Source: an uncultured Pseudomonadota bacterium
Lineage (GTDB): Bacteria; Myxococcota_A; UBA796; SXON01
Assembly (NCBI GenBank): GCA_903959175.1
Contig: CAJBVW010000061.1
Coordinates: 1 to 37,404, forward strand
Direction: 5' to 3'
DNA: 37,404 nucleotides
Part shown: positions 15,362 through 37,404 of the stretch, piece after piece
Layout of the letters: each line of letters begins with the position of its first letter
Position numbering within the stretch: the stretch's first letter is position 1
Program-made: the position numbers and the translations under genes
Notes under the pieces: model-generated
What the model was told of the DNA's origin: nothing
The model's database searches: none
What the model saw: the letters and a program-made list of their open reading frames with translations, nothing else

Positions 15362-15408
15362 GTCGACCTCCAGTCGCCCGACGAGGATCGGGCGGCTACT
15401 GTGGGTAA

Positions 15409-15726
15409 ATGTTGGGTAGCAGCCTCCGAGCCAGCTTTCTCGTGGTCGCTTTCGCGTCCGCTGGCTGCACCCCCACGCGAGTTTGCGAGGGCGACGACTG
15501 CGCCTGCTCGTCCGACGACGAATGCATCATCGGTTGTCAGCCCGACCCGGAGTTGCGGGGTTGCGACTGCACGAACGGGTTCCCCGTGCCCGAGAATGGT
15601 CACGAAGGCGAAGAAGGCTGCGGCGAGATGGAATGCATGGCCGCCATGTGCGCGGATTGGACCGAGTACGAAGCTCGGTGCAGCTTCGGCCGGTGTGTTG
15701 GCGTCCCCGTGAGGGACCACCCGTAG
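15409..15726 (+). CDS. Small cysteine-rich lipoprotein
   Basis: This 105-aa protein has a short signal peptide ending in a lipobox (ASAGC, Cys about residue 20). The mature part is rich in cysteine and acidic residues (CEGDDCACSSDDEC, GCDC, and further Cys pairs). Such small Cys-rich lipoproteins are common in Myxococcota-like genomes. It is transcribed away from the GHKL gene and converges on the methylase. It may be cargo or an accidental neighbour of the element. I cannot assign a function. Confidence 0.65.
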   Translation: MLGSSLRASFLVVAFASAGCTPTRVCEGDDCACSSDDECIIGCQPDPELRGCDCTNGFPVPENGHEGEEGCGEMECMAAMCADWTEYEARCSFGRCVGVPVRDHP

Positions 15727-15758
15727 CTCCTGCCCACGGTCATCGTGGCCGGTGATCT

Positions 15759-16781: not shown

Positions 16782-16973
16782 GACGCACCTCGGCCGCGCG
16801 CGGGATGCGCGAGCGGCGACGGGTTGCGACGGAGGAAAGCGAACATGATTCACTCACGACTCGAAGGCGTAGGAGGGCCCACGAGCCCTGTTGGCGGGGG
16901 CGGGAGGGGTCCGGGATGGCCCGCTCGCCGACCCCGAGGAAGGGCCCGTGGCGCAGTTTTCCGAGGGGGTGGG

Positions 16974-17440: not shown

Positions 17441-18442
17441 TCAGGCCGCGCGGCGCGTGGCCGCGAGGTCCACGGGCACGTCGCGGAGCGTGATGTCGGT
17501 GAGGATGTCGCTCGACCGCTTGGTGATGAGGTCGTAGAGGCTCCACGGCTTCGACGGCGGGCCGGTGACGGCGTGCCAGACCCCCGCCACGGAGACGCGG
17601 CGCACGCGGTAGGCGCCGAGCCCCAGCTCCGACCACTCGGTCGGCACCGGCGACCACCAGATGTTGCCGTCGTCGTTGTAGTTCCGACGCGCGGGGGCGG
17701 AGGTGCGGCGGAACTTGGACGCGCACGTCCAGGCGTATTGGGCGACGACATCGTTGGGGACGGCCGGACGGCGACGTGGGCCCTCGGCGTACCAGGCCAC
17801 GAGCCGCTTCGCCGGCCCGAGTGCGCCCGCCGCGCCCTGGTGGACGGTGCGGTTGTAGTACAACGTCATCGCCCGCTCGGTCGAGACGCCGAGCACGCCC
17901 GCGATCTCGACGGCGCCCGCCATGTACTCGGACTCCGCCGCGACGCGGGCCTGCACCTGCTGGAACGCGGGCCAACGCCCGGCGGCGGCGAAGCGGGACA
18001 CCCAGGGCTCCGCCCAGAGCGCGACGCCATCGACGGCTTCGAGGCTGGCGCGGCCCGTCACGTCGAGGAGCCGCGCCCAGCTCGCGCCGAAGAAGCGGCT
18101 GAAGGCCAACGGATCGGCGGCGGCCATCTGGCGGAGCAGACGGCCGAGCGAGCCGGACTTCTGCGTCCACTGGAGGATGCCGTAGCTGACGCCGTTGCCG
18201 TCGAGGTTGGCCTGCACGGACCAGTAGTTGCCCTCGTGCTCGCTCGTCTTGCGAAGGAGCGTCGGGATCCAATCGGTGATGAGTTCTTCCACCTTCTCCT
18301 CCAGTTTCTTAGCTGCCTTTCCTGCCGATTCCGCGGTCTCCTTCGCAACGCGCCGCGCAGACGGCGATGCCGCCGCCGCGAGCACGAGGAGCCCGAACGC
18401 CCCCGCCCCGAGTAGGAGCGGCATGTTGTTGCCCTTGCTCAC
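17441..18442 (-). CDS. Membrane-anchored lysozyme-like glycoside hydrolase
   Basis: This 333-aa protein has one N-terminal membrane segment (residues about 7-26) followed by a charged helix (ETAESAGKAAKKLEEKVEELI, about 35-55). A lysozyme-fold-like domain then begins TSEHEGNYWSVQANLDGNGVSYGILQW (67-92), the pattern of peptidoglycan or chitosan hydrolases in which the early Glu (E68 or E70) is the acid and the D81-G region supports catalysis. The GTG start overlaps the stop of the DarB-like gene (GTGA). In phages and conjugative elements such enzymes cut peptidoglycan locally during entry or exit; the membrane anchor fits a virion membrane or the host inner membrane. The exact GH family is not certain. 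Confidence 0.75.
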   Translation of the reverse strand: MSKGNNMPLLLGAGAFGLLVLAAAASPSARRVAKETAESAGKAAKKLEEKVEELITDWIPTLLRKTSEHEGNYWSVQANLDGNGVSYGILQWTQKSGSLGRLLRQMAAADPLAFSRFFGASWARLLDVTGRASLEAVDGVALWAEPWVSRFAAAGRWPAFQQVQARVAAESEYMAGAVEIAGVLGVSTERAMTLYYNRTVHQGAAGALGPAKRLVAWYAEGPRRRPAVPNDVVAQYAWTCASKFRRTSAPARRNYNDDGNIWWSPVPTEWSELGLGAYRVRRVSVAGVWHAVTGPPSKPWSLYDLITKRSSDILTDITLRDVPVDLAATRRAA

Positions 18443-21400
18443 GCTGCCCCCTCGGCGACATCGTCGCCCGCGTCGGCTTCGCCGGAGAGCAGGTTCCGCG
18501 GGATCGACCGACCCCACCACCAGCGCCCCGCCTCCGCGAGCTCGCCGAACTTGAGCCCCGACGCCGAGGCCTGCGCGAGGAACGCCTGCCAGCCGCCCTC
18601 CGTCGGCGGGAGCACGTCGACACCGGCGGTCCCCGATGCGGCGCCGGCGTTGACCACGCGGAGCCCGGACGGAGCGACAACCGGGATCTTCTGGCTCTGC
18701 TGGTTGTAGTACGACACCTTCGCGAGCGCGCCGACCACCGTGTCGGCCACCTGCGGCCAGGTGCGCTCGACCCAGGCGTCGGGTGCGTGCTGCCAGCCCA
18801 GGCCGGGCCAGTCGCCCGAGTAGCGGAGCCGGTCGTTGGCGGCCTGAGTCACCGCGCGGATGGTGGATGGCTCCTCGTCCGCCGGGAAGGTCGCGCCGTA
18901 GTTCTCCGGCTTGAGCGAGGTGAAATTGCCGTCATCGGCCTTCGCGAGCTTCCACGTCGCGTCACCGGCCGAGCGCAAGGCGATCTGCCCGTCCCGGGTG
19001 ACCTTCCCGAACTCGATGAAGTCGATGCGCGAGGCGTTCCACGCGCTCGGGATGCCCGCCCGGAGGCCCTCGTACACGGGACCGCCGCCCTCGGCGACGA
19101 GCACCGGGCGTTCGCGGACGACCACCGCGGTCGGCGCCCACGGCCACGCATCGACGTTCACCCGGGACAGGTGCTTCAGCCGCTCCTCGGCCTCGCCGCG
19201 CAGACGGGCCGCCTCGATGCCGTCCTTCGTGCGCTCGGCGTTGCGGAAGCGCGCATTGATGGCGCGCAACAGCTTCGACGCCTCGGCCGCGATCTTCTTC
19301 TTCGCCTCTGCCTCGCGCTGGGCGCGAACGGCCTCGAGTCGGGCGCGGGTCTGCTCGGGGTTCCGGCTGATGAGGAGCAGAATCTCCTCGGGCCCCATGT
19401 CCATCTGGGCGCCGGGGTTGTTGGTGTCCCGGTCCTGAGACTTGATGAGTTGGGTCATCCAACCCCGCTTTCCCTGGATGAGGTTGAAGCGGAGCCCGTC
19501 CTGACTGCGGCGCGCGAAGTAGTAGTAGATCGCGATGGCGGAGAGCGTGTTGCCCTGCCGAACGCCGCGCCCGTTCCGCTGCTGCAACGTGGCAGGTTCC
19601 CACGGCAGGTCGAGGTGGTGGATCGCGCAGGTGCGCGTCTGGAGGTCGATGCCCTCGTAGGCGATCTGGTTCGCGATCACGACGTCGAACTTGGGCGCCG
19701 CGCCCTCGTCGGGGTCGCCGTTGAACTCCTTGGCGATGCGCTGGCGGTCGGCGGCGTTGGGCGCCACCTCGGCGTTCAGCACGCCGATCCGATCGGCCGC
19801 GATCCCCTCCCGGACGAGCACCATCTTGACCCAGCGGTGCGCGGCGACGTTGTCCACGAAGACGATGTGGCCGCAGGTCCGGTTGGCGAGCACACGCTCG
19901 GCGAGGGCCTCGAACTTCGGCGAGCTGGGGTCGCTCACCTGCTCGGCGTTCTTCCAGCCGTAGCCCTGGTCAAGCTGCGAGTGGATGGCGACGAGCGCCA
20001 TGCGGGCGAGCAGCCCGAGGATCTTCGCCTTGTCCGACGGGTCGTCTGACTTCAGCGCCGCTTCGATCTCGCGGACGTAGCGGTCGTACTTGGCGTCCTG
20101 GCCGGCGTCCATATCGACCTCGACCATCTCGACCTTCGGATCGGGGAGCTTCAACCCCACGTCCTCGGCGGTCTTGAACTCGCCGTAGCGGAGGATGGTG
20201 TCGCGCAGCTCGTGGAGGTTCTGGAACCCGACGACGGCGCCGCGCTCCTCGACCTCCATGCTCGGGGTCACGACGGGCCGGATCTCGATCCGCAGGTAGC
20301 GATCGATGAACTGCTCGGGGTCGCGGATGCCCATCCGACGCCAGGCGTCCGGATCGACGTACTGGATGAGGTTGTAGAACTCCAACGGGGAATTCTTGGC
20401 GGGCGTCGCCGAGAGGAGCACGACGCCAGTGCCGCCCGTACGCTTCCGCACCGCGGCACACCGGAAATCCAACTGCCACGCGCGCTTCGAGCCGTCGCCG
20501 GGGTTGCCCATGAACCGGGGCACGCCGCCCTCACGATCCTCTGGGAGGTACAGGTTCTTGTAGTTCTGCGCCTCGTCCACGATCAGCATGTCCACGCCGA
20601 TGTCGTCCCACGCGATGCCGGGGTCGTACTCCCAGCCCTCGGCGAGCTCCATCTGTTGCGCCACCCACGCGGCGATGCCCTCGCGGAGGATGGCCTCGTC
20701 GCGCTCGGACAGCTTCTTCCGCTTCGCCGCGTTGCGACGGCGCAGCGCCACCTCGCGCTGGATCGCCTCGGTCTTGTCGGCGTAGGCCCGAACCGCCTTC
20801 TCGTTCATCCGCGTTCGGCCAAGAGCGGTGTAGGTCAGGAGCACCACGTCGTACTCGCCGGCCTGGAACCGGGTCCACTTCTCGGCGCGCTCCTGGGGCG
20901 TATCGGTGTCGCTCGTGGCGAGGCCCTTCCGCTCGCCGCGTGAGATCGTCTTCTTCTTCGAGCCGATCACCGCGATCCGGTAGTCGGGAAGCACCCGCTG
21001 GATGTCGGCGACCCACTTCCAGACGATGGAGTTGGGCACGAGCACCACCGGCCGCTTGCACCAACCTTCCTGGCGAGCGCGCGCGAGCACGGCGATGCCC
21101 GTGTACGTCTTTCCTACCCCGACATCGAAGGCGAGCAATCCGCCGCGGTTCGCGAGGATGCGGCGTCCGCCGGCGACCTGGTGGGGATGCAGCCGGGGGC
21201 CGTCCTTCCGCCAGCGCGCGATGGCCAGCGGCTCGGCGGTGTAGGTCGGGGCGATGTAGCCCCGGAACTGCCGGTTGTAGGCGTGCTCGATCGCGAGGCG
21301 ACGCTCGGGCGTGGCCCCGGCCCACCCCTTGAAGCTGGCGTCCCACTCGGCCGCCTTCTTCATCCGGATCTTGTCGATGTCCTTCTCGTTGTCGTCGTCG

Positions 21401-23586
21401 AACTTCTTCGAGGGCGCGAACATCGTCTTGTCGTGGTTGATCCAGCCGAGGATGAGCAGCACCTCGGGGTGCATGTCCCCGGCGTTCTCCTTCTTCGACA
21501 TCTTGTCGTACTGCCAGCCCTGCGGCGCGACGAGGCCGCCCTGGCGGACGAAGGTGACATCGTCGTACCCGGTGTACGTCGCGTTCACCCACTGGGCGAC
21601 GAGGTCGAGCGGGAGCCAACCCTGCCGCGCGCTGACGCCCTCGATGTCGTCGAAGATCGCGGGCTTGATCGCGTCGAGGAGTCGGCGGACCTGGGCCTTC
21701 GCCTGCGCGTCGTCGGGACGCGCCATCGCCCGGTCCATCTTCGGCCAGAGCGACCCGGACAGGTACACTTCGGCCGGGAACAGCTCGTCCCAGCCGTCGC
21801 CATCGACGCACCAGCCGCCCGCGAGCACCTTCGCGCGGATCTGGTCGGGCGTGAACGGCCCGCCGAGCCCAGCGTGGTAGTCGAGGAGCTCGCGCACCGA
21901 GAGCATCCGCGCGTGGCGGTAGAGGTGCTCGGCCTGGGCGACCACGTCGTCGGCCCGGCCGTTGAACCGCGGCTCGATGACCGGGGGCTTGTTGCGGAGC
22001 CCGGCGATCAGGTGCCCGGCGCGGTCAAACGCCGACAGGAAGCGCTCGGCGCCGGTGTTGCCGCCACGGGCGAGCTTCACCAGCTCGATTCGGCCGTGCG
22101 GGTTGCCGTTCGTGGTGATCCAGGCGGCGAGGCCCTCGTGCAGTTCGGGCCACAAGAGTGGCGGCTCCTCGGCGTTTTCGGCCGCGACCAGCGCGAGGTA
22201 CTTGTCCACGCGTAGCCCGAGCAGCACCGCGCTGGCGAGCTCGCGCGGGAGGTCTGCGACATCGGCCTCGGTGACGCGGGTGACGCCGATACGACCCCTG
22301 CCGCCAGCGGGGTCGGCGGCCTGCCGAGCCGGGAAGGCGATGACCTTGCAATCGCCGCAGATCGGGCGCTCGACGAGCGCGGGCAGACCGGTGAACTCGC
22401 CCTGCACCTGGTAGCCCCAGCGCGGCTTCGCGGTCTGGTCGTCCTCGCCGTGGTCGTCGCCGACTTCGCGGCCGAGGATGTGACGCGGGAACGCCTTGAA
22501 GTAGCCGCCGGAGACGATGGCCTCGTCGGCGCTGTCCACGGCGTCGAGCTGGCCGCCACGCGCACGGAAGAAGAGCACGTCGGTGACGAGCATCGCGCCG
22601 GGGAAGATCGCCTCGCGTCGCTTCTCGTTGATGCTCGGGAGCCGGAACGCCGCGGCGAGGTGGTGGCGCTTCAGCACCTTCTCGCGGAGGGCTACGAACT
22701 GCGCCGTCCGCGACGTGAGGAAGCCGCCGGGCACGAGGAACACGCCGAGCCCGTCGGGAGCGAGCAGGTCGAGGCCCCGACGAAGGAAGTAGTGGTACGC
22801 CATCTTCTCGCGGTAGGCCCGGTCTGGGTCCTCCGCGATCGACGCCCCGCGGATGCCGTAGGGCGGGTTCGACACGACGAGCCCAAGACGCCCCGCAGCC
22901 CCGGCGCCCTTCTCGCGCACCCAGCGCTCGAACGGGGCCAGCGTGAGGTCCACGTCGGGGCGCAGGACGTGCAGCATCCGGGCGGACAGCTCGGACCACT
23001 CGACGGCGTGCCAGGTAATGCCCGGAACGGGCTCGAACGCACGGAGAAAGCGACCGATACCCGCCGAGGGTTCCAGCGCGTGGACGGTCTCGCCATCGTG
23101 GGGAAGGCTGGGTACCAGCGGCGCGACGAGACGGGCGATCTCCTTCGCCACCTTGCTCGGGGTGTAAAATTCATGAATGAGTCCGCGCTGTTCTGGCGGA
23201 GGGAAGCCTGGCGGGAACTTGCCAGCGGCGGTCTGGATGGAGAGCCCGCCCCAGCCGGAGTACCCGGCGAGCACGGTGCGCTCGTCGGGGTTTGGGGCGC
23301 GCTTCTGGGCGTACAGGTTCGCCGCCGTCGCCATCGCGGCGATGTTCGCCGCGGTGCGCTTGCTGGCGGTCCAGAACTCAGGGATGTCCTCGACGGGGAA
23401 GGCGGCGTTGTTCGCGGCCTGCATCCGCGCGAGCACGGGACCGAGGTTCTGCTCGATGACGGCTTCGAGCGCCCAGCGGTTCCGGGCAAGGAAGTCGTCG
23501 AGATACGCGACGTCCACGCCGCTCGGCAGGCGGGTGCGGACGAGGGGGACGACGGCGTCGAGGAGCTGGGCGGCGACTGCACTCAT
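18439..23586 (-). CDS. DarB-like N6-adenine methylase / SF2 helicase with N-terminal shared tag
   Basis: This 1715-aa fusion starts with the tag RLPSGVDVAYLDDFLARN (19-36). An N6-adenine methylase follows, with motif I EPSAGIG (172-178) and motif IV NPPYG (240-244). A Snf2-like SF2 helicase then shows Walker A GVGKT (823-827), VLVPNSIVWKW, DEAQ (1004-1007), SATP near 1065, and a motif V/VI region with EGIDLQTR and LQQRNGRGVRQG. The C-terminal 400 residues hold a coiled region and a domain of unknown role. This layout matches phage P1 DarB and related methylase-helicases; P1 DarB is packaged in the virion and protects incoming DNA from type I restriction. No clear ribosome-binding site precedes the ATG. 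Packaging here is inferred. Confidence 0.9.
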   Translation of the reverse strand: MSAVAAQLLDAVVPLVRTRLPSGVDVAYLDDFLARNRWALEAVIEQNLGPVLARMQAANNAAFPVEDIPEFWTASKRTAANIAAMATAANLYAQKRAPNPDERTVLAGYSGWGGLSIQTAAGKFPPGFPPPEQRGLIHEFYTPSKVAKEIARLVAPLVPSLPHDGETVHALEPSAGIGRFLRAFEPVPGITWHAVEWSELSARMLHVLRPDVDLTLAPFERWVREKGAGAAGRLGLVVSNPPYGIRGASIAEDPDRAYREKMAYHYFLRRGLDLLAPDGLGVFLVPGGFLTSRTAQFVALREKVLKRHHLAAAFRLPSINEKRREAIFPGAMLVTDVLFFRARGGQLDAVDSADEAIVSGGYFKAFPRHILGREVGDDHGEDDQTAKPRWGYQVQGEFTGLPALVERPICGDCKVIAFPARQAADPAGGRGRIGVTRVTEADVADLPRELASAVLLGLRVDKYLALVAAENAEEPPLLWPELHEGLAAWITTNGNPHGRIELVKLARGGNTGAERFLSAFDRAGHLIAGLRNKPPVIEPRFNGRADDVVAQAEHLYRHARMLSVRELLDYHAGLGGPFTPDQIRAKVLAGGWCVDGDGWDELFPAEVYLSGSLWPKMDRAMARPDDAQAKAQVRRLLDAIKPAIFDDIEGVSARQGWLPLDLVAQWVNATYTGYDDVTFVRQGGLVAPQGWQYDKMSKKENAGDMHPEVLLILGWINHDKTMFAPSKKFDDDNEKDIDKIRMKKAAEWDASFKGWAGATPERRLAIEHAYNRQFRGYIAPTYTAEPLAIARWRKDGPRLHPHQVAGGRRILANRGGLLAFDVGVGKTYTGIAVLARARQEGWCKRPVVLVPNSIVWKWVADIQRVLPDYRIAVIGSKKKTISRGERKGLATSDTDTPQERAEKWTRFQAGEYDVVLLTYTALGRTRMNEKAVRAYADKTEAIQREVALRRRNAAKRKKLSERDEAILREGIAAWVAQQMELAEGWEYDPGIAWDDIGVDMLIVDEAQNYKNLYLPEDREGGVPRFMGNPGDGSKRAWQLDFRCAAVRKRTGGTGVVLLSATPAKNSPLEFYNLIQYVDPDAWRRMGIRDPEQFIDRYLRIEIRPVVTPSMEVEERGAVVGFQNLHELRDTILRYGEFKTAEDVGLKLPDPKVEMVEVDMDAGQDAKYDRYVREIEAALKSDDPSDKAKILGLLARMALVAIHSQLDQGYGWKNAEQVSDPSSPKFEALAERVLANRTCGHIVFVDNVAAHRWVKMVLVREGIAADRIGVLNAEVAPNAADRQRIAKEFNGDPDEGAAPKFDVVIANQIAYEGIDLQTRTCAIHHLDLPWEPATLQQRNGRGVRQGNTLSAIAIYYYFARRSQDGLRFNLIQGKRGWMTQLIKSQDRDTNNPGAQMDMGPEEILLLISRNPEQTRARLEAVRAQREAEAKKKIAAEASKLLRAINARFRNAERTKDGIEAARLRGEAEERLKHLSRVNVDAWPWAPTAVVVRERPVLVAEGGGPVYEGLRAGIPSAWNASRIDFIEFGKVTRDGQIALRSAGDATWKLAKADDGNFTSLKPENYGATFPADEEPSTIRAVTQAANDRLRYSGDWPGLGWQHAPDAWVERTWPQVADTVVGALAKVSYYNQQSQKIPVVAPSGLRVVNAGAASGTAGVDVLPPTEGGWQAFLAQASASGLKFGELAEAGRWWWGRSIPRNLLSGEADAGDDVAEGAA

Positions 23587-23623
23587 GGGGAGGCAATAGT
23601 CGCGACCGGGCGGGGAAGGCAGC

Positions 23624-23662
23624 GACTTTCACTTGCCGCGGGGCGGTTTCACTTGCCGCGGG
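23624..23662 (-). promoter_or_regulatory. Two direct copies of a TTTCACTTGCCGCGGG element upstream of the helicase gene
   Basis: Copies at 23627-23642 and 23647-23662 are exactly 20 bp apart. The first extends to GACTTTCACTTGCCGC (23624-23639), identical to 32078-32093 upstream of the other leftward operon. On the coding strand the element reads GCGGCAAGTGAAAGTC and lies 38 bases before the helicase start codon. It is probably an operator or promoter element. Confidence 0.65.
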
Positions 23663-23785
23663 CGGCAGGTAGCGGCGTGGCTCACCGTGGGCTTCTCGAT
23701 GCCGAATTAACGCCCCGCGCTCGCCAGCGCCCCGAGAGCGTTCATCGTTCCTATCGGCACTCGCCGAGTGGGCTCAAGTCCGTAG

Positions 23786-24613
23786 CTACGGGAACGCGCA
23801 CTTCCGCCACGCCAGCCGAAGCGGGTGGTCGAGCGTGTGGTCCCAGTAAGTGCCGAGGACATCGTACATGCCATGGGGGTTGGTCCTCATGAAGGACACG
23901 CGGAATTCACGCAGTACCTGCTGATAGATAGGGTCAGGCCAATACGACGTCGCGCGTGAGATTTCCCATCCGTGAAACCAGCGTCCCGGATCTGTGTTAT
24001 CAGTTGAGATCGCGCGACTCTTCATCTCAGCGGTCAGAGCGGTCATTGCTGCGGGATCAGGCGCAATTGTAGCCGCTAAGGCGAAAAATGCAGGAACCCA
24101 GGCGATCCTCCCGTAGAATGGGAAGCTAGCATGATGGTTGTCGCCCGATCCGAAACGGCCAAGCCAAAACGGCCAGCCGCGCCGGTAAATGTCATGTGCG
24201 ATACTCTGACGGGGATCGCAAATCGAACTTGCCGCAGCGACGGAAATATAATCCTCCCAAGAAGCAAATTCACGCGGCTTTATGCCGTTGTTCACGAGAA
24301 CGCCCGGGTGGTCGTCCGCGTTGTAGTAGTTCACGCGTATCTGATGGTTGAACCTATCTTCGAGGCCAGCAGGCCACTCGGCTCGCAACTTCCTCACCAT
24401 GAAGTACCAGCTCGTCCAGATGCTGCAATTGTTCGCTCCCCACCCAGCACCCTCCCTGTCCTTGATGAACCCGTACGGATCCGTGAACCTATTTGCAATT
24501 TCATCGATCCAGCTTCCTCCGGTCTCAACGGCAGACACCGGCATGGCTCGGACGCATCCCGGGCCTGTCAAAGCCAGCGCCGCGGTCCCTTTAAGGACGT
24601 GTCTTCGATTCAT
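23786..24613 (-). CDS. Tat-exported protein of unknown function, lower GC
   Basis: This 275-aa protein has a twin-arginine signal (NRRHVLKG followed by the hydrophobic TAALALTGPG). I chose the ATG at 24611-24613 because GAGGT lies seven bases before it. The mature part is rich in Trp, Tyr and Phe (GWGANNCSIWTSWYFM, FGSGDNHHASFPFYG, YWDHTLDHP) and looks like a folded periplasmic or secreted domain, possibly alpha/alpha-barrel-like. I do not recognise the family. Its base composition is clearly lower in GC than its neighbours, suggesting separate acquisition. It sits between the two leftward operons and may be cargo. Confidence 0.75.
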   Translation of the reverse strand: MNRRHVLKGTAALALTGPGCVRAMPVSAVETGGSWIDEIANRFTDPYGFIKDREGAGWGANNCSIWTSWYFMVRKLRAEWPAGLEDRFNHQIRVNYYNADDHPGVLVNNGIKPREFASWEDYISVAAASSICDPRQSIAHDIYRRGWPFWLGRFGSGDNHHASFPFYGRIAWVPAFFALAATIAPDPAAMTALTAEMKSRAISTDNTDPGRWFHGWEISRATSYWPDPIYQQVLREFRVSFMRTNPHGMYDVLGTYWDHTLDHPLRLAWRKCAFP

Positions 24614-24769
24614 TAAGCTACCTCGGCCTGGCAAGATACCATAGACGTAGGCGTCCCGGTGAGCCCCCCAGACCCCTTTGCCGAGCGGGCCCGCGCGTCG
24701 GCGCAGGCGCGCTGATCCGCCAGCCGCGGCGGTCCGCCCAGCGGCGAGGGAGCAGGTCTCAGTACTCGG

Positions 24770-25085
24770 AGGGGCGAGCCGGCGTGGTGGGCGTCGACCC
24801 AGCGGACGAAGTCGGCGGCGACGGGCGCGGACTTCTTCTTTCGGAGCGCGAGACGGCCGGCCGCGTCGAGGTTCTTGGCGCGCTGCTCGACCGCGTAGAG
24901 CCCCGACCCGAGGGCGTGTTGTCGTCGCTCCGATCCCGCCCGTTCCCTGCGACGCGGGCCCCGACTGCTTCGGCCTCCTTCAACATGCGTCGGACGCGGG
25001 AGTTGCAGCCGCACTCGACGACGCACCCGCCCGGCGGGCCGGCGACCTGGTAGCCGGCGAAGGGCGGGGCTTCGCTGGCGGGTGC
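24770..25085 (-). pseudogene. Remnant of an IS66-family transposase
   Basis: Two minus-strand frames together resemble the C-terminal half of an IS66 transposase. One frame carries VVECGCNSRVRRMLKEAEA (about 25030-24970), like the family's GCxAHxRRxFxEA motif. Another carries LYAVEQRAKNLDAAGRLALR (about 24913-24850), like the LYAIEREAK...RLALR motif, followed by a short FVRWVD helix. The frame changes between the two, and the rest of the transposase is missing. No terminal inverted repeats were found. Limits are approximate. Confidence 0.5.
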
Positions 25086-25173
25086 CCCGCGGCCCTCCAA
25101 CCCGGGGAAAAGGTGCTAATGGACGCCGTGGTTCGTCGTCGTGAACTCGTAGATGGCCGCGGACCGATTTGAG

Positions 25174-25468
25174 CTACTTCCACAAGGCGTTGCGGGACGC
25201 GGACCACTGCGATCCCCCCCAGTGGGGGTACTCGCTCCCCTCCAGTAGCCTCTGAGTGATTCGAAACGTGCCGTTGGCGCTCTCCGGGTGCGCATCTGAC
25301 GACACCGAGCTCCGGGCGACGTTCGCTTGATCCGTGATACAAGCAGCTTGCGGGCGTGGATTCGAAGCACCCGCCCGCAGTCGCGGCGGTCGACATAACC
25401 TGCGTGAAGACCATCGAGTCATCTGAGCGGAGGTAGTCAACAGTCGTGACGGGAGGATTGGCACTCAC
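25174..25468 (-). pseudogene. Small gene, probably frameshifted
   Basis: A GTG at 25466-25468 overlaps the stop of the 133-aa membrane gene upstream (GTGA), the pattern used throughout this operon. The first about 50 codons (VSANPPVTTVDYLRSDD and on) are in that frame. From roughly 25330 the protein-like text moves to another frame (SSDAHPESANGTFRITQRL ... EYPHWGGSQWSASRNALWK, stop at 25174). A single frameshift would give a protein of about 95-100 aa. Function unknown. The neighbouring IS66 remnant suggests decay at this operon end. Confidence 0.4.
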
Positions 25469-25866
25469 GGCCCTGCCCCGCTAGCCGCCTCAACCGGCAG
25501 GCTCGGCACCAACACCTTCACCGCCTCCGCCGCCCGGGTCGGATCGACCCCGCGCTCCAGCGCGAGGATGCCGATCACGAACATGTTGAGCAGCCAGAGC
25601 AGTAGCATCGACCAGGGCACCCAGCGGAACGGCGGGTTCGTCCGGACCTCGCGGATCTCGGTCTTGAGCTCGCCGAGCGCGGACACGACGGCCGCGCCGT
25701 TGCCGCGGATCTCGGCCACGAGCGCCGCTTCGAGCGGCGTGAGGAAGCCCTCGGCGAGCTGCGGGTCGGGGACCAGGCGCGGGCCGACGGCGGGGGCCGG
25801 GGCGGGCGGGATCTGTCCCGCGGGCGTGACCGTTTCGACGGCGGCCAGGGCAGCGGCATCGCTCAC
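25465..25866 (-). CDS. Single-pass membrane protein of the small-protein operon
   Basis: This 133-aa protein has an Ala/Pro-rich N-terminus, a short amphipathic segment (residues 42-75) and one strong membrane segment (WVPWSMLLLWLLNMFVIGILAL, about 82-103), then a short C-terminal tail. The GTG start overlaps the preceding stop. No enzyme motif is present. It could be a virion-membrane or holin-like protein, but this is inferred only from size and setting. Confidence 0.72.
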   Translation of the reverse strand: MSDAAALAAVETVTPAGQIPPAPAPAVGPRLVPDPQLAEGFLTPLEAALVAEIRGNGAAVVSALGELKTEIREVRTNPPFRWVPWSMLLLWLLNMFVIGILALERGVDPTRAAEAVKVLVPSLPVEAASGAGP

Positions 25867-29874: not shown

Positions 29875-30513
29875 TCAAAGGTGGAGGAGGAAGACGACGC
29901 GGTAGGCGTAGGTGCCGGCGGGGAGCACGCACCGGATGGTCGCGGCGTCCCCGATGGGAGCGCCCGGAGCGGGCTGCTTGTCGGCCGCGTACCGGCCGCG
30001 GGCGGTGGCGTTCACGTCGAGGAGCTCGACGAACGCCGTGGAAAGGAGGGTGCTGTCCGAGAGTTCAAGGCGGACGAACTTGGCCCACGGGGGCGGGATC
30101 ACATCGACACTTCCGCCGCCGCCCCCGACGATCTGGGCGCTCGATCCCCGCACCGTCCACTGGTTCTCGGTGTCACATTGGCCGTTGGCAATCGCCGCAC
30201 GCGCCTGGATGTTGGCCGAAGTAGACAGGTTGGAGCCGAACACCTGCACGGTCGTGGCGTGGACGCAGATGCGCGTACACTTCGGGACGTCGAAGAGGGC
30301 CGTGCGCTGGGCACCGCCGCCGCCGGACCAGACGAGCCGGGCCTCCCAGGGGGAGCCTTCGTCCGACCAGAGGTCGATGATGCGCCAGTCGCCGTCACCC
30401 ACGCCGACGGATTGCGCCGTGAGCACCTCGCCCTCTGCCCCCGCCGAGCCGGCCACCGTCGAAGCGGAGAGCTTCGCGGTACCGGAACGGCGGGAGAGCT
30501 TGCATACGCCCAC
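29875..30513 (-). CDS. Beta-rich protein, candidate structural component
   Basis: This 212-aa protein is Gly/Ala/Val-rich with many short strands (EARLVWSGGGGAQRTALFDV, TRICVHATTVQVFGS, WAKFVRLELSDS, TYAYRVVFLLHL) and scattered cysteines. It contains no recognisable enzyme motif, signal peptide or membrane helix. The start is a GTG with GGTGAG nearby. Its neighbours are the 138-aa and 242-aa beta-rich proteins. Together they could be jelly-roll-type virion proteins, but nothing in the sequence proves it. Confidence 0.7.
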   Translation of the reverse strand: MGVCKLSRRSGTAKLSASTVAGSAGAEGEVLTAQSVGVGDGDWRIIDLWSDEGSPWEARLVWSGGGGAQRTALFDVPKCTRICVHATTVQVFGSNLSTSANIQARAAIANGQCDTENQWTVRGSSAQIVGGGGGSVDVIPPPWAKFVRLELSDSTLLSTAFVELLDVNATARGRYAADKQPAPGAPIGDAATIRCVLPAGTYAYRVVFLLHL

Positions 30514-30530: not shown

Positions 30531-31259
30531 TCAGCAGCGCGGCGTCTTGACCCGCGCCTTGCCGTAGAAGCTGAGCTTCAGGGCGGCGGTGGTCGAGCCA
30601 GCCGTGTAGTTGATGGTGACCGGGACACCGGCGCGCAGGATGCGTCCGCCGAAGGAAGGCCCGTGGTACGCCGTGGGCGAGATCAGCGCCGCGTCGAGGT
30701 TGTCGAGCACCACCGGGTCGTCGCCCGAGATGATGGTGTTGATCGTCGCAGCGGTGTCGCCGGTCGCGAAGATCTTGGAAAGATGCAGGCTGGTACGCGG
30801 CGTGAGGGTCACGCTCATCGACTGCCCGACGGCGGTGGCGACGATGCCGCTCACGGTGACGTTGCGCTCCACGATCTTCCCCTTCCGCGACTTGCGGATC
30901 TTGCGGTTGACGGCCCGGTTCTTCTGCGTGAGCTTCTTCTCGCGGGCCGCGAGGCGCTTCTGGCGGCGGTGGATGCTGCGGAGCTTCCGCTGCTTGGGCG
31001 TGAGGCCGATCTCGTCGCCGAAGTCGTCGCCGAGGTCGTCGCCGAGGTCGTCGCCGAAGTCGTCCCCGAGGTCGTCGCCGAGGTCGTCGCCGAAGTCGTC
31101 GTCGTCGTCGTCGTCATCGTCGTCGTCGTCGTCACCGTCGAGGTCCGCCCCGAAGGAGGGGTCGAGGCCGTGGAGCGAGGCGCGCAGGGAGGTGCGATCG
31201 ACGAGGCAATGCCCGTCGGCGGTGAAGGTCACGAGGGCCCAGATGGGTGCGGTGGTCAT
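30531..31259 (-). CDS. Asp-repeat protein with basic segment and beta-rich C-terminus
   Basis: This 242-aa protein has four parts. A short N-terminal domain (1-40) precedes a poly-Asp run and GDDL/GDDF tetrapeptide repeats (about 42-83). A strongly basic coiled segment (88-128, with RRQKRLAAREKKLTQKNR) comes next. A beta-rich C-terminal domain (130-242) contains VTLTPRTSLHLSKIF and a hydrophobic YHGPSFGGRILRAGVPVTI stretch. The last part would suit a jelly-roll coat domain, with the charged arms facing nucleic acid or other subunits. The Asp repeat is encoded by a 12-base DNA repeat and may vary in length. No family is recognised. Confidence 0.72.
   Translation of the reverse strand: MTTAPIWALVTFTADGHCLVDRTSLRASLHGLDPSFGADLDGDDDDDDDDDDDDDFGDDLGDDLGDDFGDDLGDDLGDDFGDEIGLTPKQRKLRSIHRRQKRLAAREKKLTQKNRAVNRKIRKSRKGKIVERNVTVSGIVATAVGQSMSVTLTPRTSLHLSKIFATGDTAATINTIISGDDPVVLDNLDAALISPTAYHGPSFGGRILRAGVPVTINYTAGSTTAALKLSFYGKARVKTPRC
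31018..31138. repeat. In-frame 12-base and GTC repeats encoding Asp-rich tract
   Basis: The plus strand shows about six 12-base units of the type GTCGTCGCCGAG or GTCGTCGCCGAA, then a run of GTC triplets with one ATC and one ACC. On the minus strand these encode GDDL/GDDF repeats followed by poly-Asp. Such repeats expand and contract by slippage without changing frame. Confidence 0.85.
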
Positions 31260-31325: not shown

Positions 31326-31970
31326 TCAGCGGCGCTCGCGGATGAAGCGACTCCGCCCGGACACGTCCTCGTCCTCGTCGCGGTTGCGACGCTGGACCCG
31401 GGCCCGGCGGCGTCCGGCGACGTCTTCGCCCTCGGTGCCGGGCACCATGCGGACCATCCGGGCGATCTCGCCGATGTCGTCGCCCTTGATCTGGGCAGGA
31501 GGGGCCGCCGCGGGGGCCGGAGCCGCAGCCGGAACCTGGGCGGGCGGCGTCGCGGAGCCGTTCTTCTTCTCGGCGAGCGCGCGGCCCGCGTGGCGACCGA
31601 TGCGTCCGATACCGGCGGCCATGAGGCCGTTGCCGAGGGCCAGCGCGTGGCTGCCACCCTTGCCCGACATCGTCTTGTAGAGGCCGTACCCACCGAGCAG
31701 GAGGCCACCGCCAAGGCGGAGGTCCACCGGGCCGATATCCATCTTCTCCTCGCCCAGGTAGCCCTCGGCAAAGGTGGCCGCGAACACGGTGCCCTGGGTC
31801 TCGGCCGTCGCGATGACCGCGTCGGCGAGCTCCTCGGACATCTCGCGCGCCTTGTTGAAGCGGCCGGTCAGGTTCTTGGCCTTGGCGATGGCCTCGGAAA
31901 AGACACCCTTCATCTTGCTGTCGGGTACCTTTCCGCCGGTCATGGCCGTCTTGAGGGGGCTGGTCGTCAT
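31326..31970 (-). CDS. Gly-rich small protein, first gene of the leftward operon
   Basis: This 214-aa protein starts at the ATG at 31968-31970, which has GAGGA upstream. The first 60 residues are helical (KMKGVFSEAIAKAKNLTGRF). The centre is a Gly-rich amphipathic or membrane-active region (LRLGGGLLLGGYGLYKTM and HALALGNGLMAAGIGRIG, about 84-125). The C-terminus is Ala/Pro-rich and then Arg/Asp-rich (RRRARVQRRNRDEDEDVSGR). It is read from the shared 16-bp element about 108 bases upstream. It may be a membrane-associated structural protein. Unrecognised family. Confidence 0.72.
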   Translation of the reverse strand: MTTSPLKTAMTGGKVPDSKMKGVFSEAIAKAKNLTGRFNKAREMSEELADAVIATAETQGTVFAATFAEGYLGEEKMDIGPVDLRLGGGLLLGGYGLYKTMSGKGGSHALALGNGLMAAGIGRIGRHAGRALAEKKNGSATPPAQVPAAAPAPAAAPPAQIKGDDIGEIARMVRMVPGTEGEDVAGRRRARVQRRNRDEDEDVSGRSRFIRERR

Positions 31971-32077
31971 CGTGGGGTCCTCGGGGGTGGAGTGACCGGC
32001 GGGCCGGTCGGGAGTCGGGGGCCGGATGAGCCCGGCTGACGCAGACCACATTGCTCGCCGAAGTCGAGGATGGAAGG

Positions 32078-32093
32078 GACTTTCACTTGCCGC
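32078..32093 (-). promoter_or_regulatory. 16-bp element shared with the helicase operon
   Basis: GACTTTCACTTGCCGC here is identical to 23624-23639. On the minus strand it reads GCGGCAAGTGAAAGTC and lies about 108 bases upstream of the 214-aa gene. CCTTCC follows the element in both places (directly here, after GCTG in the other). It is likely an operator or a promoter part. Confidence 0.6.
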
Positions 32094-32335
32094 CGCTTGC
32101 CGCTTTTCCGGCCTTCGCAGCGCAGCAAGTGCGGGGCCAATTGCGGCAACCTCGGGGGCGACCGCGGCAACTGAAGCCGCGGTCCGCAGCAAGGGCAGCA
32201 ACCGATCCGGGCTCGGCGCAGCAAGGGCGGAAAGGGCCCGCAGCAAGCCAGGATCGCCCGGCAGCAACCGCAGCAAGGCCCGGCGGAAAGGGCGGCAACC
32301 ACCCGGGCAGCAAGTGCAGCAAGCGGCGGCAAGTG
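32084..32335. repeat. Iteron-like array of GC(A/G)GCAA units
   Basis: About 17 short units with consensus GC(A/G)GCAA(G/C) fill the intergenic region. On the plus strand, units start near 32122, 32143, 32164, 32186, 32195, 32218, 32240, 32261, 32270, 32292, 32307, 32316 and 32326. GCGGAAAG variants are at 32227 and 32283, and two inverted copies lie at 32084 and 32095. Many spacings are 21-22 or 9-10 bases, that is, close to whole helical turns. The longest unit GC(A/G)GCAAGTG recurs at 32122, 32307 and 32326 and, inverted, at 32084. The array may be an operator cluster, a replication origin or a partition site. Confidence 0.75.
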
Positions 32336-32418
32336 GTTTTTCAGGGTCAAGACATAGTCTCGAAGCTACATCATATGTGCAGCATCAACCACCTACTATC
32401 ACATAGGAACACCCCACG
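32336..32418 (+). promoter_or_regulatory. AT-richer stretch, likely promoter for the rightward operon
   Basis: After the GC-rich array the sequence becomes notably AT-rich (ACATAGTCTC, CATCATATGTGC, CTACTATCACATAGG) up to the ATG at 32419, with AGGAAC as a weak ribosome-binding site. It probably holds the promoter of the rightward operon. I cannot fix -35 and -10 boxes with confidence. Confidence 0.35.
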
Positions 32419-33561
32419 ATGACCACCTACATCTTCCACGACCTCGACCCCATCCAGAAGCGCCTCGTCCAGCTCGCCGACGACCTCGGCTACGTCGTCC
32501 TCGCCGAGGTGACGGGCCGCAGCCAGACCGACAAGCTGGCGCGCGTCAACCTGAACGAGACCGATCTCGCACCCTTCCTCGCGGCCCGCACGGGTGAGGA
32601 CGCCGAGGACGAGGACGACGAGCGCGACGACGACGGCGACGGGGATGCCGATCGCGACGAGGACGACGACGTGCAGGACCACTTCGACGGCCCGATCCGT
32701 GACGCCACCCCCGCCGACATCGCCCGCGCGGCCGTGCGCTGGGTGCAGGAGACGGCTGGGGCGCAGATGAACTCGACGCGCCGTCGGAAGTTCAAGCTCT
32801 CGGCGTGGAGCCCCAAGGGCGACCGCCTCATCTACAGCGCCCGCTTCTCGTGCGAGAACCCGGACTGGGACACCGCCGAGGAAGACGACGACCTCGAGGA
32901 GCGGCGTCGGCCGCCCGTGCTGGTGCCCGGTTCGGGGGGGCTCACCGTCCTGCGGAACCCCGCGAACCCCGCCGCGGCGGCCACCCCGCCGGCCGGCGAC
33001 AAGCCCAGCTCGGCGATGGTCATGCTCGAAGCCATCCCCGAGGGCCGCGTGTGGAAGGCGCTCGGCGGCGGGTACGAGCACCTGCTCACCCTGTACGAAC
33101 GCGGCTTCGGCGGCCTGTCCGAGCTCCAAAACGACGCCCTCTCCATGATGGGCGGCCAGAACCGGCGCAACCAGGTGATCATCGAGAGTCTCGCCGACCG
33201 GCTGATCACGCTGCGGGTCGGGACCGAGTTCGCGGAGAACGAGGGTCGCCAGGAGGCGGCCGGCTCACGCATGGGTCAGGAGCTGGGCAAGCAGTTCATC
33301 TCCGAGCTGGGCGGCCTCGGCCGCGTGCTCGCCACGGCGAAGTTCGGCATGGCGCCCGAGATGGTCGAGCTCGCCGACATCGTGACCGCGTCGCCCGAGC
33401 TGATGGAGGCGATGCGTCGTCCCGAGGTCCTCAAGATGCTGCGCGACGAGAAGACGCGGAAGGAACTGGCGAGTCTCCTCGTCGCCGCGTCGGCCGTGCC
33501 GGATTCCCCGGAACCCCCTCCCACCCCCAACCCGCCGACGGACCTGCCGAAGGCGGCCTGA
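32419..33561 (+). CDS. Unrecognised 380-aa protein, first gene of the rightward operon
   Basis: The 380-aa protein has an N-terminal domain (1-60) followed by a long acidic run (about 60-90, EDAEDEDDERDDD). A second folded part reads RRRKFKLSAWSPKGDRLIYSARF (about 117-139). A Pro/Ala linker and a helical C-terminal region (about 190-360, with SELQNDALSMMGGQNRRNQV) complete it. No catalytic motif is visible. It is expressed from the iteron region and shares the acidic-run style of the 200-aa and 242-aa proteins. It may be a virion, scaffold or replication-associated protein. Function unassigned. Confidence 0.78.
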   Translation: MTTYIFHDLDPIQKRLVQLADDLGYVVLAEVTGRSQTDKLARVNLNETDLAPFLAARTGEDAEDEDDERDDDGDGDADRDEDDDVQDHFDGPIRDATPADIARAAVRWVQETAGAQMNSTRRRKFKLSAWSPKGDRLIYSARFSCENPDWDTAEEDDDLEERRRPPVLVPGSGGLTVLRNPANPAAAATPPAGDKPSSAMVMLEAIPEGRVWKALGGGYEHLLTLYERGFGGLSELQNDALSMMGGQNRRNQVIIESLADRLITLRVGTEFAENEGRQEAAGSRMGQELGKQFISELGGLGRVLATAKFGMAPEMVELADIVTASPELMEAMRRPEVLKMLRDEKTRKELASLLVAASAVPDSPEPPPTPNPPTDLPKAA

Positions 33562-33610
33562 TCCCCCGTTTCGATCCCACCCACCCTCACGATCCCCCTT
33601 GGAGTCCCCC

Positions 33611-34213
33611 GTGTCCGAAACCGCATCCCGCCTTCCCCGCCGCACCGACAAGAAGCCCGAGTGGGCCGACGTCATCGGCCGCTTCTACGCCAACAGCTTC
33701 GACGCCCCCACCCGCGCCGCGCTCCTCGACTCCGCCGAGGCGTGGGCCTCGATGGACCCCGACGAGCAGTCGTTCCACGCCGCGCACCTCGCCTTCCGTC
33801 AGGTCCAGGCGCTCGGCGACATCCACGACACGCTGAAGGGCATCGAGCGCGGCCTCGCCACCCTCGACCCGAAGGCGCTCGCGGCGCTGAAGCACCTTCC
33901 GGGCGTGAAGCGCGCGCTGGTAGTGATCGCGCGCGGCCAGCAGGAGATGCTGGAGGTCCTCGAAGCCAACGGCTCCCCCGGCGGCGCCTCTGGTGAGGAT
34001 GACGACGACGGTGACAACGACGACGCGGACGACGACGACGCCGACGGTGAGGACAGCGATGGCGACGACGACGACGACAGCGAGCTCGCCGACGCCGTCG
34101 ATGCCGACGAGATCGAAGAAGAGGACCACGGCAACGGCGATGCCCCGATCGTGCCCGAGGTCATCCCCGCTGGTGCGCGGCGCCCCGTGCCGACCGAAGG
34201 GGGTGCGTCGTGA
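33611..34213 (+). CDS. Helical protein with long acidic tail
   Basis: The 200-aa protein starts at a GTG with GGAG seven bases upstream (33601-33604); an in-frame TTG at 33599 is less likely. Residues about 18-122 are helical (WADVIGRFYANSFDAPTRAA, HAAHLAFRQVQALGDI, GVKRALVVIARGQQEMLEVLE). An approximately 45-residue Asp/Glu run (about 128-175) and a Pro-rich end follow. The gene overlaps the next one by GTGA. It may bind a basic partner or mimic DNA through the acidic tail. No family is recognised. Confidence 0.75.
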   Translation: MSETASRLPRRTDKKPEWADVIGRFYANSFDAPTRAALLDSAEAWASMDPDEQSFHAAHLAFRQVQALGDIHDTLKGIERGLATLDPKALAALKHLPGVKRALVVIARGQQEMLEVLEANGSPGGASGEDDDDGDNDDADDDDADGEDSDGDDDDDSELADAVDADEIEEEDHGNGDAPIVPEVIPAGARRPVPTEGGAS

Positions 34214-34698
34214 ACCCGGCGCTCGCCCAGGACCCGCGCGCGCTGCGGGTCAACCTGACCGCGCCCACCACCGCGATCCGCATCGGGCCGTTCTCGTTCG
34301 ACGGGCTCAAGGCGCTGCTCGGCTTCGAGCTCGCCGAACTGCTCGGCCCGATGATGGTCGGGCCGAAGTTCCAGCGCCCGATCCTCGGCGGCGTCATCGA
34401 CGTGTACCCGCTCGCCATCCCCAACGGCGAGGGACTCACGATCCCGGTGAAGCTGGTTGGGGGCGTCGGCTTCCGCAACCTGCACGGAGCCCTCGTGCTT
34501 CAGGTCCCCCCTGCGATGGTGGACCTGGTGCGCGCGCAGCTCGCCACCGAGCTGGCGAACGGTGAGGCCCTCGGCCCCGCCAACAACGACAACGGTGCCG
34601 GCGGCACCGTGACCGAGTTCGCGCTGCGGCTCCGGCCCGGGATGCGGAAGGCGATCCCGCTCGGCACCTGGGGCGAGCTGGGCCTGGAGGCCGCGTGA
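34210..34698 (+). CDS. Small unrecognised protein of the rightward operon
   Basis: This 162-aa protein has a mixed alpha/beta look (TTAIRIGPFSFDGLKALLGF, GGVIDVYPLAIPNGEGLTI, FRNLHGALVLQVP) and a Gly/Asn-rich loop before the C-terminal strand region. The hydrophobic stretches are too short for clear membrane helices. The GTG start overlaps the previous stop, and the stop overlaps the regulator's start (TGATG). A structural role is possible; nothing specific can be seen. Confidence 0.72.
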   Translation: MNPALAQDPRALRVNLTAPTTAIRIGPFSFDGLKALLGFELAELLGPMMVGPKFQRPILGGVIDVYPLAIPNGEGLTIPVKLVGGVGFRNLHGALVLQVPPAMVDLVRAQLATELANGEALGPANNDNGAGGTVTEFALRLRPGMRKAIPLGTWGELGLEAA

Positions 34699-35189
34699 TG
34701 GAAACCATCCTGTTCCGCGAGCACAAGGCCAGCTTCGGGGCCTACCTTCGCGCCCTCCGCGTCGGCCGGGGCCTCTCCCTGCGCGACGCCGCCACCAAGC
34801 TGGATGTCACGTTCGCCAAGCTCCAGAAGATGGAGACGGGCGGGCGGTTCCGCATCGAGTCGCCTGCCATCTTCGACGCGATGGCCGCGCTGTTCGAGCG
34901 GCCCGTCGCCGAGGTGCTCGCGGCGGCTGGGGTGCGATTCGATTTGCCTGCGCTCACGACGCCGGGGACCGGCCGCGAAATCTGGCTCTACCGGCGCAGC
35001 GGCGGCTGGTCACGCATCGCGGACTTCACCTGGAAGGAGGACGCGACGAGCCACGACCTCGACGACGAGATGGCCGCCGCCGGCTACGACCCCTGCACGC
35101 TCACCTACGGGCGCGAGTACGGGCTGATGGTCGAGGTACATCGCGGGAGACACGGCACGACCCGGCCCCCGTACGACTACTTCGTGTAG
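34698..35189 (+). CDS. XRE-type helix-turn-helix regulator
   Basis: This 163-aa protein has an N-terminal HTH of the XRE/Cro type. FGAYLRALRVGRGLSLRDAATKL (about residues 12-34) is followed by KLQKMETGGRFRI and a further helix ending in FERPVAEVLAAAG. The C-terminal 90 residues are of unknown role (REIWLYRRSGGWSRIADFTW). It is the only DNA-binding regulator I recognise in the element. Its likely targets are the GC(A/G)GCAA units and the 16-bp element upstream of both leftward operons, but that pairing is inferred. A GTG one codon earlier (34695) is an alternative start. Confidence 0.82.
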   Translation: METILFREHKASFGAYLRALRVGRGLSLRDAATKLDVTFAKLQKMETGGRFRIESPAIFDAMAALFERPVAEVLAAAGVRFDLPALTTPGTGREIWLYRRSGGWSRIADFTWKEDATSHDLDDEMAAAGYDPCTLTYGREYGLMVEVHRGRHGTTRPPYDYFV

Positions 35190-36157: not shown

Positions 36158-36276
36158 CTCCGACTCGACGCTCGCATAGCGGCGGCGTCGTGAAGCTGCG
36201 CGTTCGGAACCACCCAACGAGGCCCGAACGTGTCCCGGTCACCCCTTGGTGACTCTCCCACGCTTTCGGAGCTTCC

Positions 36277-37404
36277 TTGTTCCTGTTCCTGCTCGGAGCG
36301 GCACTCGCTGCGCCCCTTTCTCCTGACGACGCGGTCGCCGCCGCGCTCGCCTCCAACCCTGACGTGGCGCGCGCCGACGCGGAGCTTACCGCCGCGAAGG
36401 GTGCCTCTCGTCAGTCCGGCTTCCTGCGTGAGAACCCGGTGATCGACGCCGGATATGCGGTCGTCGGCGACAAGATCGACGTCTCCATCGGCCAGCCGCT
36501 CTCGATCAGCGGCGAGGGGCTGGCGGCGCACAAGAGCGCCCGCGCCCGAGTCGCCGCCGCCGAAGCCGGCCTCACGCGCACCCGGCTCGAAGTCGCCGCC
36601 GAGGCACGCACCGCCTACATCGAAGCGGTCGTCGCCCAACAGGGCGCGAAGCTCGGGCGGCAGGCGTTCGACCTCGCCACCCGGCAGCTCGCCGCAACGG
36701 AGTCGCGAGTGCGCGTCGGTGAGGCCGCGGACCTCGATCTTCGGCTTGCCCGGTTGGACCAGGCGAAGGCCGCGCGGGAGTTGCTCGCCGCTCGCTCTGC
36801 CGAGGCCGAGGTGCTGGCGACGCTGTCGACCCTGGCCCAGCGCGCGGTGAACGGCGGCGACCTCGACACCGATCCCCTGACGGCCGCGCCTGAGCCCCGT
36901 CCCGGGACCGACGACGAACGCTCTGACGTGCGCGCTGCCCGACTCGCGCTCGACGCCGCCGAGGCGGCCGTCGCCCGCGAACGCGCCGCAGCCCTGCCGC
37001 CGGTGACGATCGGAGGCTTCTACGAGAACGACGGGGGCAGCGTAGTCGCGGGGCCGTCGCTCGGGGTGACGCTCCCGCTCTGGCACCAGAACCAGGGCGG
37101 CGTATCCGAGGCGCGCGGCGAAGCCGGGGTTGCCCGCGCCGAACTGGACGCGACCACGGCTCGCGCGGCCGCGGAGCAGCGCACCGCCGCCGACGCCCAC
37201 GCCGACGCCGCATCCACGATGGCGAGCGTCCCCGCCACCGCCGACGACGCCGTGGCCGCGCTGGCGTCCATCGAAGCCGCCGTCCGCTCCGGCGAGATGG
37301 ACCTCGTCACCACCATCCTCCTCCGCGACGAGGTCGTGTCCGGCCAGCAGGCGCTCTCCGAAGCCCGCGGCGACCTTGCCCTCTCTCGCATTCACCTCCT
37401 CCTC
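36277..37404 (+). CDS. TolC/CzcC-family outer-membrane efflux protein, cut by window end
   Basis: 376 codons are visible and no stop is reached. The TTG start has GGAG five bases upstream and leads straight into a signal peptide (FLFLLGAALAAPLSPDDAV). The body shows the two OEP repeats: helices with ALASNPDVARADAELTAAKG near the start, RLDQAKAARELLAARSAEAE, and later TLPLWHQNQGGVSEARGEAG, typical of the 'xxPLFxxxQxx' segment of the CzcC/CusC group. With its neighbour it probably belongs to an RND heavy-metal efflux operon (CzcCBA type) that continues past the window. An earlier in-frame stop is at 36250. Confidence 0.85.
   Translation, partial: MFLFLLGAALAAPLSPDDAVAAALASNPDVARADAELTAAKGASRQSGFLRENPVIDAGYAVVGDKIDVSIGQPLSISGEGLAAHKSARARVAAAEAGLTRTRLEVAAEARTAYIEAVVAQQGAKLGRQAFDLATRQLAATESRVRVGEAADLDLRLARLDQAKAARELLAARSAEAEVLATLSTLAQRAVNGGDLDTDPLTAAPEPRPGTDDERSDVRAARLALDAAEAAVARERAAALPPVTIGGFYENDGGSVVAGPSLGVTLPLWHQNQGGVSEARGEAGVARAELDATTARAAAEQRTAADAHADAASTMASVPATADDAVAALASIEAAVRSGEMDLVTTILLRDEVVSGQQALSEARGDLALSRIHLLL

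Follow-up and report, generated by a model that had tools for sequence, protein, structure and literature searches.

Between two divergent operons of a virus-like mobile element we found an array of short repeats set at whole turns of the DNA helix, and we conclude that it is probably the operator array of a sequence-specific transcription regulator encoded by the element itself. The window analyzed here (the whole stretch of 37,404 nucleotides) belongs to a 7.2 Mb genome of a freshwater Sandaracinus-like Myxococcota, and the element occupies about 12.8–35.5 kb of it. The computed basis for this reading consists of the array, the lattice on which its units lie, the difference in word from one element to the next, the reappearance of an element's own word at a third promoter, and a fixed spacing between units and promoters.

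The Array and Its Spacing

Word search and a periodogram placed the array at 32086..32333 on the plus strand, where 15 GCRGCAA units and two of the form GCGGAAA follow a lattice of about 10.8 bp. The exact GCRGCAA units span 32087–32332 (the two leftmost in minus orientation, the remaining 13 in plus orientation), and the GCGGAAA variants at 32227 and 32283 bring the total to 17, which matches the about 17 GC(A/G)GCAA units in some 250 bp described in an earlier note on this DNA. Such a cluster lies beyond the range of shuffled sequence: the array has 13 same-strand units within 250 bp, whereas 200 dinucleotide shuffles of the window never gave more than 2, nor 1000 shuffles of the local 520 bp more than 4. 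Judged across lineages, the unit appears to be 8 bp long, with a core of the general form GCnGnnRN. Open reading frames cross the repeats in several frames without a family match, and we rejected the possibility that the array is coding sequence.

The flanking start codons are at 31970 (minus strand) and 32419 (plus strand), so the array sits between divergent genes, as the earlier note had placed it. At the left end, a pair of inverted units (GCGGCAAG and GCGGCAAG; 32086..32103, minus strand, found by word search) adjoins the left promoter; at the right end, three units (GCAGCAAG, GCAGCAAG, and GCGGCAAG; 32307..32333, plus strand, found by word search and promoter alignment) adjoin the right promoter. 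The flanks form an imperfect 30 bp inverted repeat (32084–32113 with 32306–32335, 83% complementary), and the same terminal units thus face both divergent promoters. A search of the genome found no second copy of the array.

Successive plus-strand units are 21, 21, 22, 9, 23, 9, 13, 21, 9, 13, 9, 15, 9, and 10 bp apart. Taken alone, the window array is phased to a modest or marginal degree, with a best period of 10.80 bp that is equaled in 68 of 2000 random-gap nulls. When the unit positions of 15 family arrays were pooled, the periodogram peaked at 10.75 bp with a summed power of 125.6, compared with a maximum of 50 in 500 random-gap sets; the pooled arrays are not all independent, and single arrays or lineages each peak at 10.55–10.85 bp. 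An autocorrelation over all arrays that made no use of the word peaked at 9–10, 12–13, 21–22, 32, 42–44, 53, and 64–65 bp. The helical phasing suggested earlier is therefore borne out across the family, at 10.75 bp, far more strongly than by the window alone.

Spacings, autocorrelation, and periodogram all reveal tandem direct repeats at whole helical turns, an iteron-like trait; in plasmids, iterons are direct repeats about two helical turns apart. The array might on these grounds be a replication origin, its units being iterons to which the replication initiator of an element that is episomal or phage-like would bind, with promoter control a by-product, and the presence of direct repeats two turns apart beside an AT-richer stretch favors that view. 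However, no match to a Rep initiator in Pfam, PHROGs, or NCBIfam was obtained among the proteins scanned (a new family is possible), and the DnaA box TTWTNCACA, with up to one mismatch allowed, does not occur closer than 8 kb to the array. Unlike plasmid iterons, moreover, the array has no recognized initiator gene or DnaA box beside it, its word recurs as a two-unit copy at a separate, third promoter 8.4 kb away, and in several related elements cargo splits the array, with each half staying at its own promoter. We consider an origin improbable.

Related Elements Keep the Spacing and Change the Word

The gene to the right of the array, g32419, has relatives in 28 of 71 genomes of the same class, often several per genome; drawing 377 genomes from the phylum added no further g32419-bearing genome, and a search of IMG/VR viral contigs and of phage records gave no relative. 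The relatives were all collected by searching with g32419. Their source records are freshwater-type metagenome-assembled genomes (MAGs), some with species names that are plainly wrong, together with one Sandaracinus and one Myxococcota; the data are MAG sequences, contigs may be mis-binned, and the lineages are not independent samples.

Of the g32419 relatives examined, nearly all have an array directly upstream. Each array repeats one word, which differs between lineages: we read GCGGCAA/GCAGCAA, GCTGTAG, GCGGTAA, GCGGT(T/C), GCGGGAG, GCGGG(A/G)A, GCGG(C/T)TG, GCGTCAA, GCTGAC, GCRRCTG, and others. Words were read by eye and with seeded words, and with an EM motif finder L047, L073, and L078 are among the arrays that score within the shuffle range. 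Three distant members (L114, L115, and L119) have no clear array in the 480 bp read. The earlier note had held that absence of the array from related elements would speak against it; we found arrays in the relatives, with changed words. Spacing is the conserved property of the family, and the word is the part that evolves.

Two kinds of rearrangement preserve the association of the word with its surroundings. Cargo genes inserted between the operons split the array in L044, L047, L052, L065, L068, L072, and L073, and both halves keep a common word, each beside its own promoter. In the small modules L054, L055, L056, and L060, only g32419 and a paralogue accompany the array; the L060 module has a serine recombinase-like gene close by.

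Elements that share a genome usually differ in word. The genome of the window has three elements with three different words (the window, L059, and L052), and words differ in 17/17 pairs of co-resident elements from five genomes. In two of the seven genomes with more than one element (G012 and G028), same-word copies coexist, and a strict form of incompatibility or immunity that would permit one word per cell is therefore not supported; co-resident pairs have a mean word distance only a little above expectation (P about 0.025).

The differing words of co-resident elements also bear on whether the array is a partition site, that is, a centromere-like site of the ParR/parC kind or like the omega heptads of pSM19035, which would regulate promoters as well. 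Incompatibility groups would differ in just this way, and in pSM19035 arrays of short nonpalindromic units over promoters serve both roles, the omega (ParB) heptads forming contiguous runs of 7–10 repeats of one motif (PMC9499535). Both systems place short nonpalindromic repeats at several promoters of one replicon, with a plasmid-encoded reader in pSM19035 (PMC9499535). In contrast to the omega heptads, the units described here are one or two helical turns apart, the words differ, and no ParA, ParM, or TubZ-like ATPase and no RHH protein was recognized by Pfam among the adjacent genes. As same-word copies coexist in G012 and G028, we regard partition as no likelier than an origin. The earlier note had listed an operator array, an origin, and a partition site as candidates: the first is supported, though not with the XRE regulator as the family-wide reader, and the other two are disfavored by the lack of a Rep-, ParA-, or ParB-like match in the adjacent operons and of a DnaA-box-like site near the array, and by the pair at the third promoter.

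The Word Recurs at a Third Promoter

The pair is located upstream of a gene for a SNF2 helicase joined to an N6-adenine methylase (DarB-like by family match; 18439..23586, minus strand). Word search found two GCGGCAAG units 20 bp apart at 23632..23659 on the minus strand, 32 nt before a -10-like CTATTG at 23594–23599. Throughout the 7.2 Mb genome, GCGGCAA pairs with a spacing of 19–22 bp occur at two places only, the array and 23632–23659.

Related elements have their own word at the corresponding position. The same GCGGCAAG pair precedes the SNF2/methylase gene in L041 and L043, and L044 has a GCGGAAAC/GCGGCAAG pair; in L047, whose array word is GCTGTAG, the pair is GCTGTAAG/GCTGTAGG. Further own-word pairs occur in a second GCTGTAG element, an element of the GCGGT lineage (GCGGTAAG), a GCGGGRA element, and a GCGGTCAG element. 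Of the 21 elements examined, nine have an own-word pair at this gene (lineages A, B, C, D2, and GCGGTCAG), and the same word thus stands at more than one promoter of an element, a trait of multi-site operators. The pair is absent from the other 12, several of which have another gene directly upstream; one further element has a single own-word unit. When own and foreign words were permuted among the SNF2-upstream regions, none of 20,000 permutations reached the observed diagonal; related elements share words, and the permutation ignores this kinship, without correction for phylogeny. No other observation speaks as strongly as this recurrence at the SNF2 promoter for a word that acts as an operator and is read in trans.

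Units Stand at a Fixed Distance from the Promoters

No consensus sigma-70 promoter was found in the array region, and the -10-like hexamers were assigned by eye and by alignment. The left promoter has CAATGT (32048..32053, minus strand) 32 nt after the first inverted unit, with CATAGT in several relatives, and the right promoter has TACATC (32367..32372, plus strand) 33 nt after the last unit. Relatives have TAnnnT at 32 or 42 nt on the right: TA is at offset 32 in 15/27 elements and at 42 nt, one turn more, in 6/6 members of the C (GCGGT) lineage, and the right promoters of D2 and F do not fit the 32/42 rule. At the left and SNF2 promoters the distance from unit to hexamer is 31–33 nt, and GAAAnnCnCTTCC is common after the unit. 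A fixed position relative to promoter elements, again a trait of multi-site operators, is present in lineages A, B, B', C, and E.

At none of the three promoters do units cover the -10 hexamer or the start site; they are placed upstream of the -35 position. As they stand upstream of a poor -35, on one face of the helix and at a fixed distance from the -10 hexamer, an activator fits better than a blocking repressor, and the promoter layout makes it reasonably likely that the regulator activates.

The array could instead be a set of repressor operators in an immunity-type switch, in which the same element-specific reading would silence transcription. Phage stoperators are multi-site arrays with lineage-specific motifs; those of Cluster A mycobacteriophages are 13 bp asymmetric sites across the phage genome, and motif and repressor change together (PMC6550527, PMC9283540). 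They are the closest analogue of an immunity repressor that we can offer, as both systems have many short asymmetric sites for a regulator that the element encodes itself, known in the phages and proposed here, with a motif that differs between related elements, and co-resident elements usually differ in word here. The array departs from stoperators in having 8 bp units on a 10.75 bp lattice between divergent promoters and a likely regulator without a recognized helix-turn-helix (HTH) motif. The position of the units at the three promoters and the coexistence of same-word elements in two genomes both count against a repressor, which we hold to be possible but distinctly the weaker reading.

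Which Protein May Read the Word

Since co-resident elements differ in word, the reader of an operator array of this kind would be an element-encoded protein; a host factor was rejected as the reader on the same ground. The best candidate is the product of g32419 (32419..33561, plus strand), for which our confidence falls a little short of even. For this 380-residue protein, structure prediction gives an alpha/beta domain at the N terminus, followed by a coiled coil of some 100 residues and a helical C-terminal part. The F and G lineages have lost the rest of the element but retain the array together with g32419 and a paralogue, and of five conserved proteins, that of g32419 shows the strongest correlation between sequence identity and word distance (rho -0.65, compared with -0.18 to -0.50 for the other four). 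Within the protein, the segment that keeps the largest partial correlation (-0.34) is a hairpin at residues 34–42. Linkage alone would make neighboring genes co-vary with the word, and the constant company of array and g32419 is partly built in by the g32419-based collection.

No known DNA-binding domain was recognized in the g32419 product, and a structure search with Foldseek and VIA-align listed no DNA-binding fold, although the protein may still have one; it returned only RbcS-like arrangements for the N-terminal domain (best Z 7.9), a resemblance that we treat as being at the level of a common arrangement. A profile match to the "CAP repeat" of PDB 8vd6 was dismissed, as single repeats score 3.6–9.5 bits.

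The earlier note had proposed an XRE-type regulator, and the element does encode such an HTH protein in the same operon (34695..35189, plus strand; Pfam HTH_31, E 3e-9). It is present in a minority of elements, with homologues in only 6 fetched loci. L048, covered for about 11 kb downstream, has an array of the same design without an XRE gene, and its word is that of L076, which has one. We therefore rejected the XRE protein as the family-wide reader and consider an operator array dedicated to it highly improbable, although it may act as the reader in the lineage of the window alone.

If the array is an operator for an element-encoded regulator, copies of the protein would occupy the 8 bp units along a single face of the helix for about 20 turns, with the terminal units at fixed distances from the -10 regions of three promoters, the divergent pair and that of the SNF2/methylase gene. 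We infer that a single trans-acting protein reads all of these sites; the g32419 product is the candidate for this role, which it might fill by means of its beta-hairpin 34–42. A more specific version of this proposal, which we put forward tentatively and would not expect to hold in full, is that g32419 represents a new class of reader: its alpha/beta domain would be unlike known DNA-binding folds, the hairpin (R34 and R42 conserved, tip 35–39 variable) would set the word, a coiled-coil multimer would extend over some 20 turns, and repeated retuning would produce mostly separate codes within a cell. Should the reading be correct, the family would amount to a natural series of regulator–operator pairs, of fixed geometry and with many words, whose elements live side by side in one cell. 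With such a series one could study directly how a protein and its twelve or more binding sites alter their specificity in step, and whether the change of word prevents cross-talk between co-resident elements; the class of the regulator may itself be undescribed.

The Element

Gene order is common to the fetched loci, with g32419, g33605, and g34210 running rightward and a long operon leftward. The g33605 product (33605..34213, plus strand) is helical with an acidic tail and matches no known family, and g34210 (34210..34698, plus strand) is the last right-operon gene conserved in most relatives. The left, structural-like operon begins with an open reading frame at 31326..31970 (minus strand), in conserved order, and in the fetched loci it includes structural-looking genes, the DarB-like SNF2/N6-methylase, and a muramidase-like protein, joined in some loci by a C5 methylase and an HSP90-like ATPase. 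Long acidic, Asp-rich tracts are kept in relatives of the products of 30531–31259 (minus strand), 33605–34213 (plus strand), and 32419–33561 (plus strand).

One left-operon protein (29875–30513, minus strand; 212 residues) is predicted to fold as two tandem beta-sandwiches (pLDDT 84). Among its full-length structure matches are those to the capsid proteins of the phages phiCjT23 (Z 7.2, 174 residues aligned) and PRD1 (Z 7.0, 195 residues aligned), at scores that fall within the range of common arrangements. Together with the muramidase and membrane-like proteins, the beta-sandwich protein hints at a tailless provirus. The SNF2/methylase gene, which has the word pair upstream, matches the family of DarB and polyvalent methylase-helicase proteins (PMC5512222), a marker of the kind of element. 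P1 virions carry antirestriction proteins of this DarB-like class (PMC5512222). The comparison stops at the portal and the terminase, neither of which was recognized in the element of the window. A literature search for a myxobacterial tailless prophage or a comparable array returned nothing relevant, and as far as we could find, this virus-like family has no published description; the searched collections of phages and viral contigs contain no member of it.

A contig of genome G007 is syntenic with the whole 37 kb of the window at 94–97% identity and so does not delimit the ends of the element. Stretches that are replaced or diverged between the two are 1297–2005 (the region of a type I specificity gene), 15352–16557 (C5 methylase), and 23662–25861, a spot 5' of the SNF2/methylase gene. 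Three minus-strand products, the ATPase (12863–15361), the C5 methylase (15759–16853), and the SNF2/methylase (18439–23586), share some 40 residues of sequence, R..P.GV....Y...F..RN...L.., placed C-terminally in the first two and N-terminally in the third, which is perhaps a docking or packaging tag. Heavy-metal or efflux genes adjoin the right end of several copies (L046, L064, L074, and L077, and 36253–37404 in the window).
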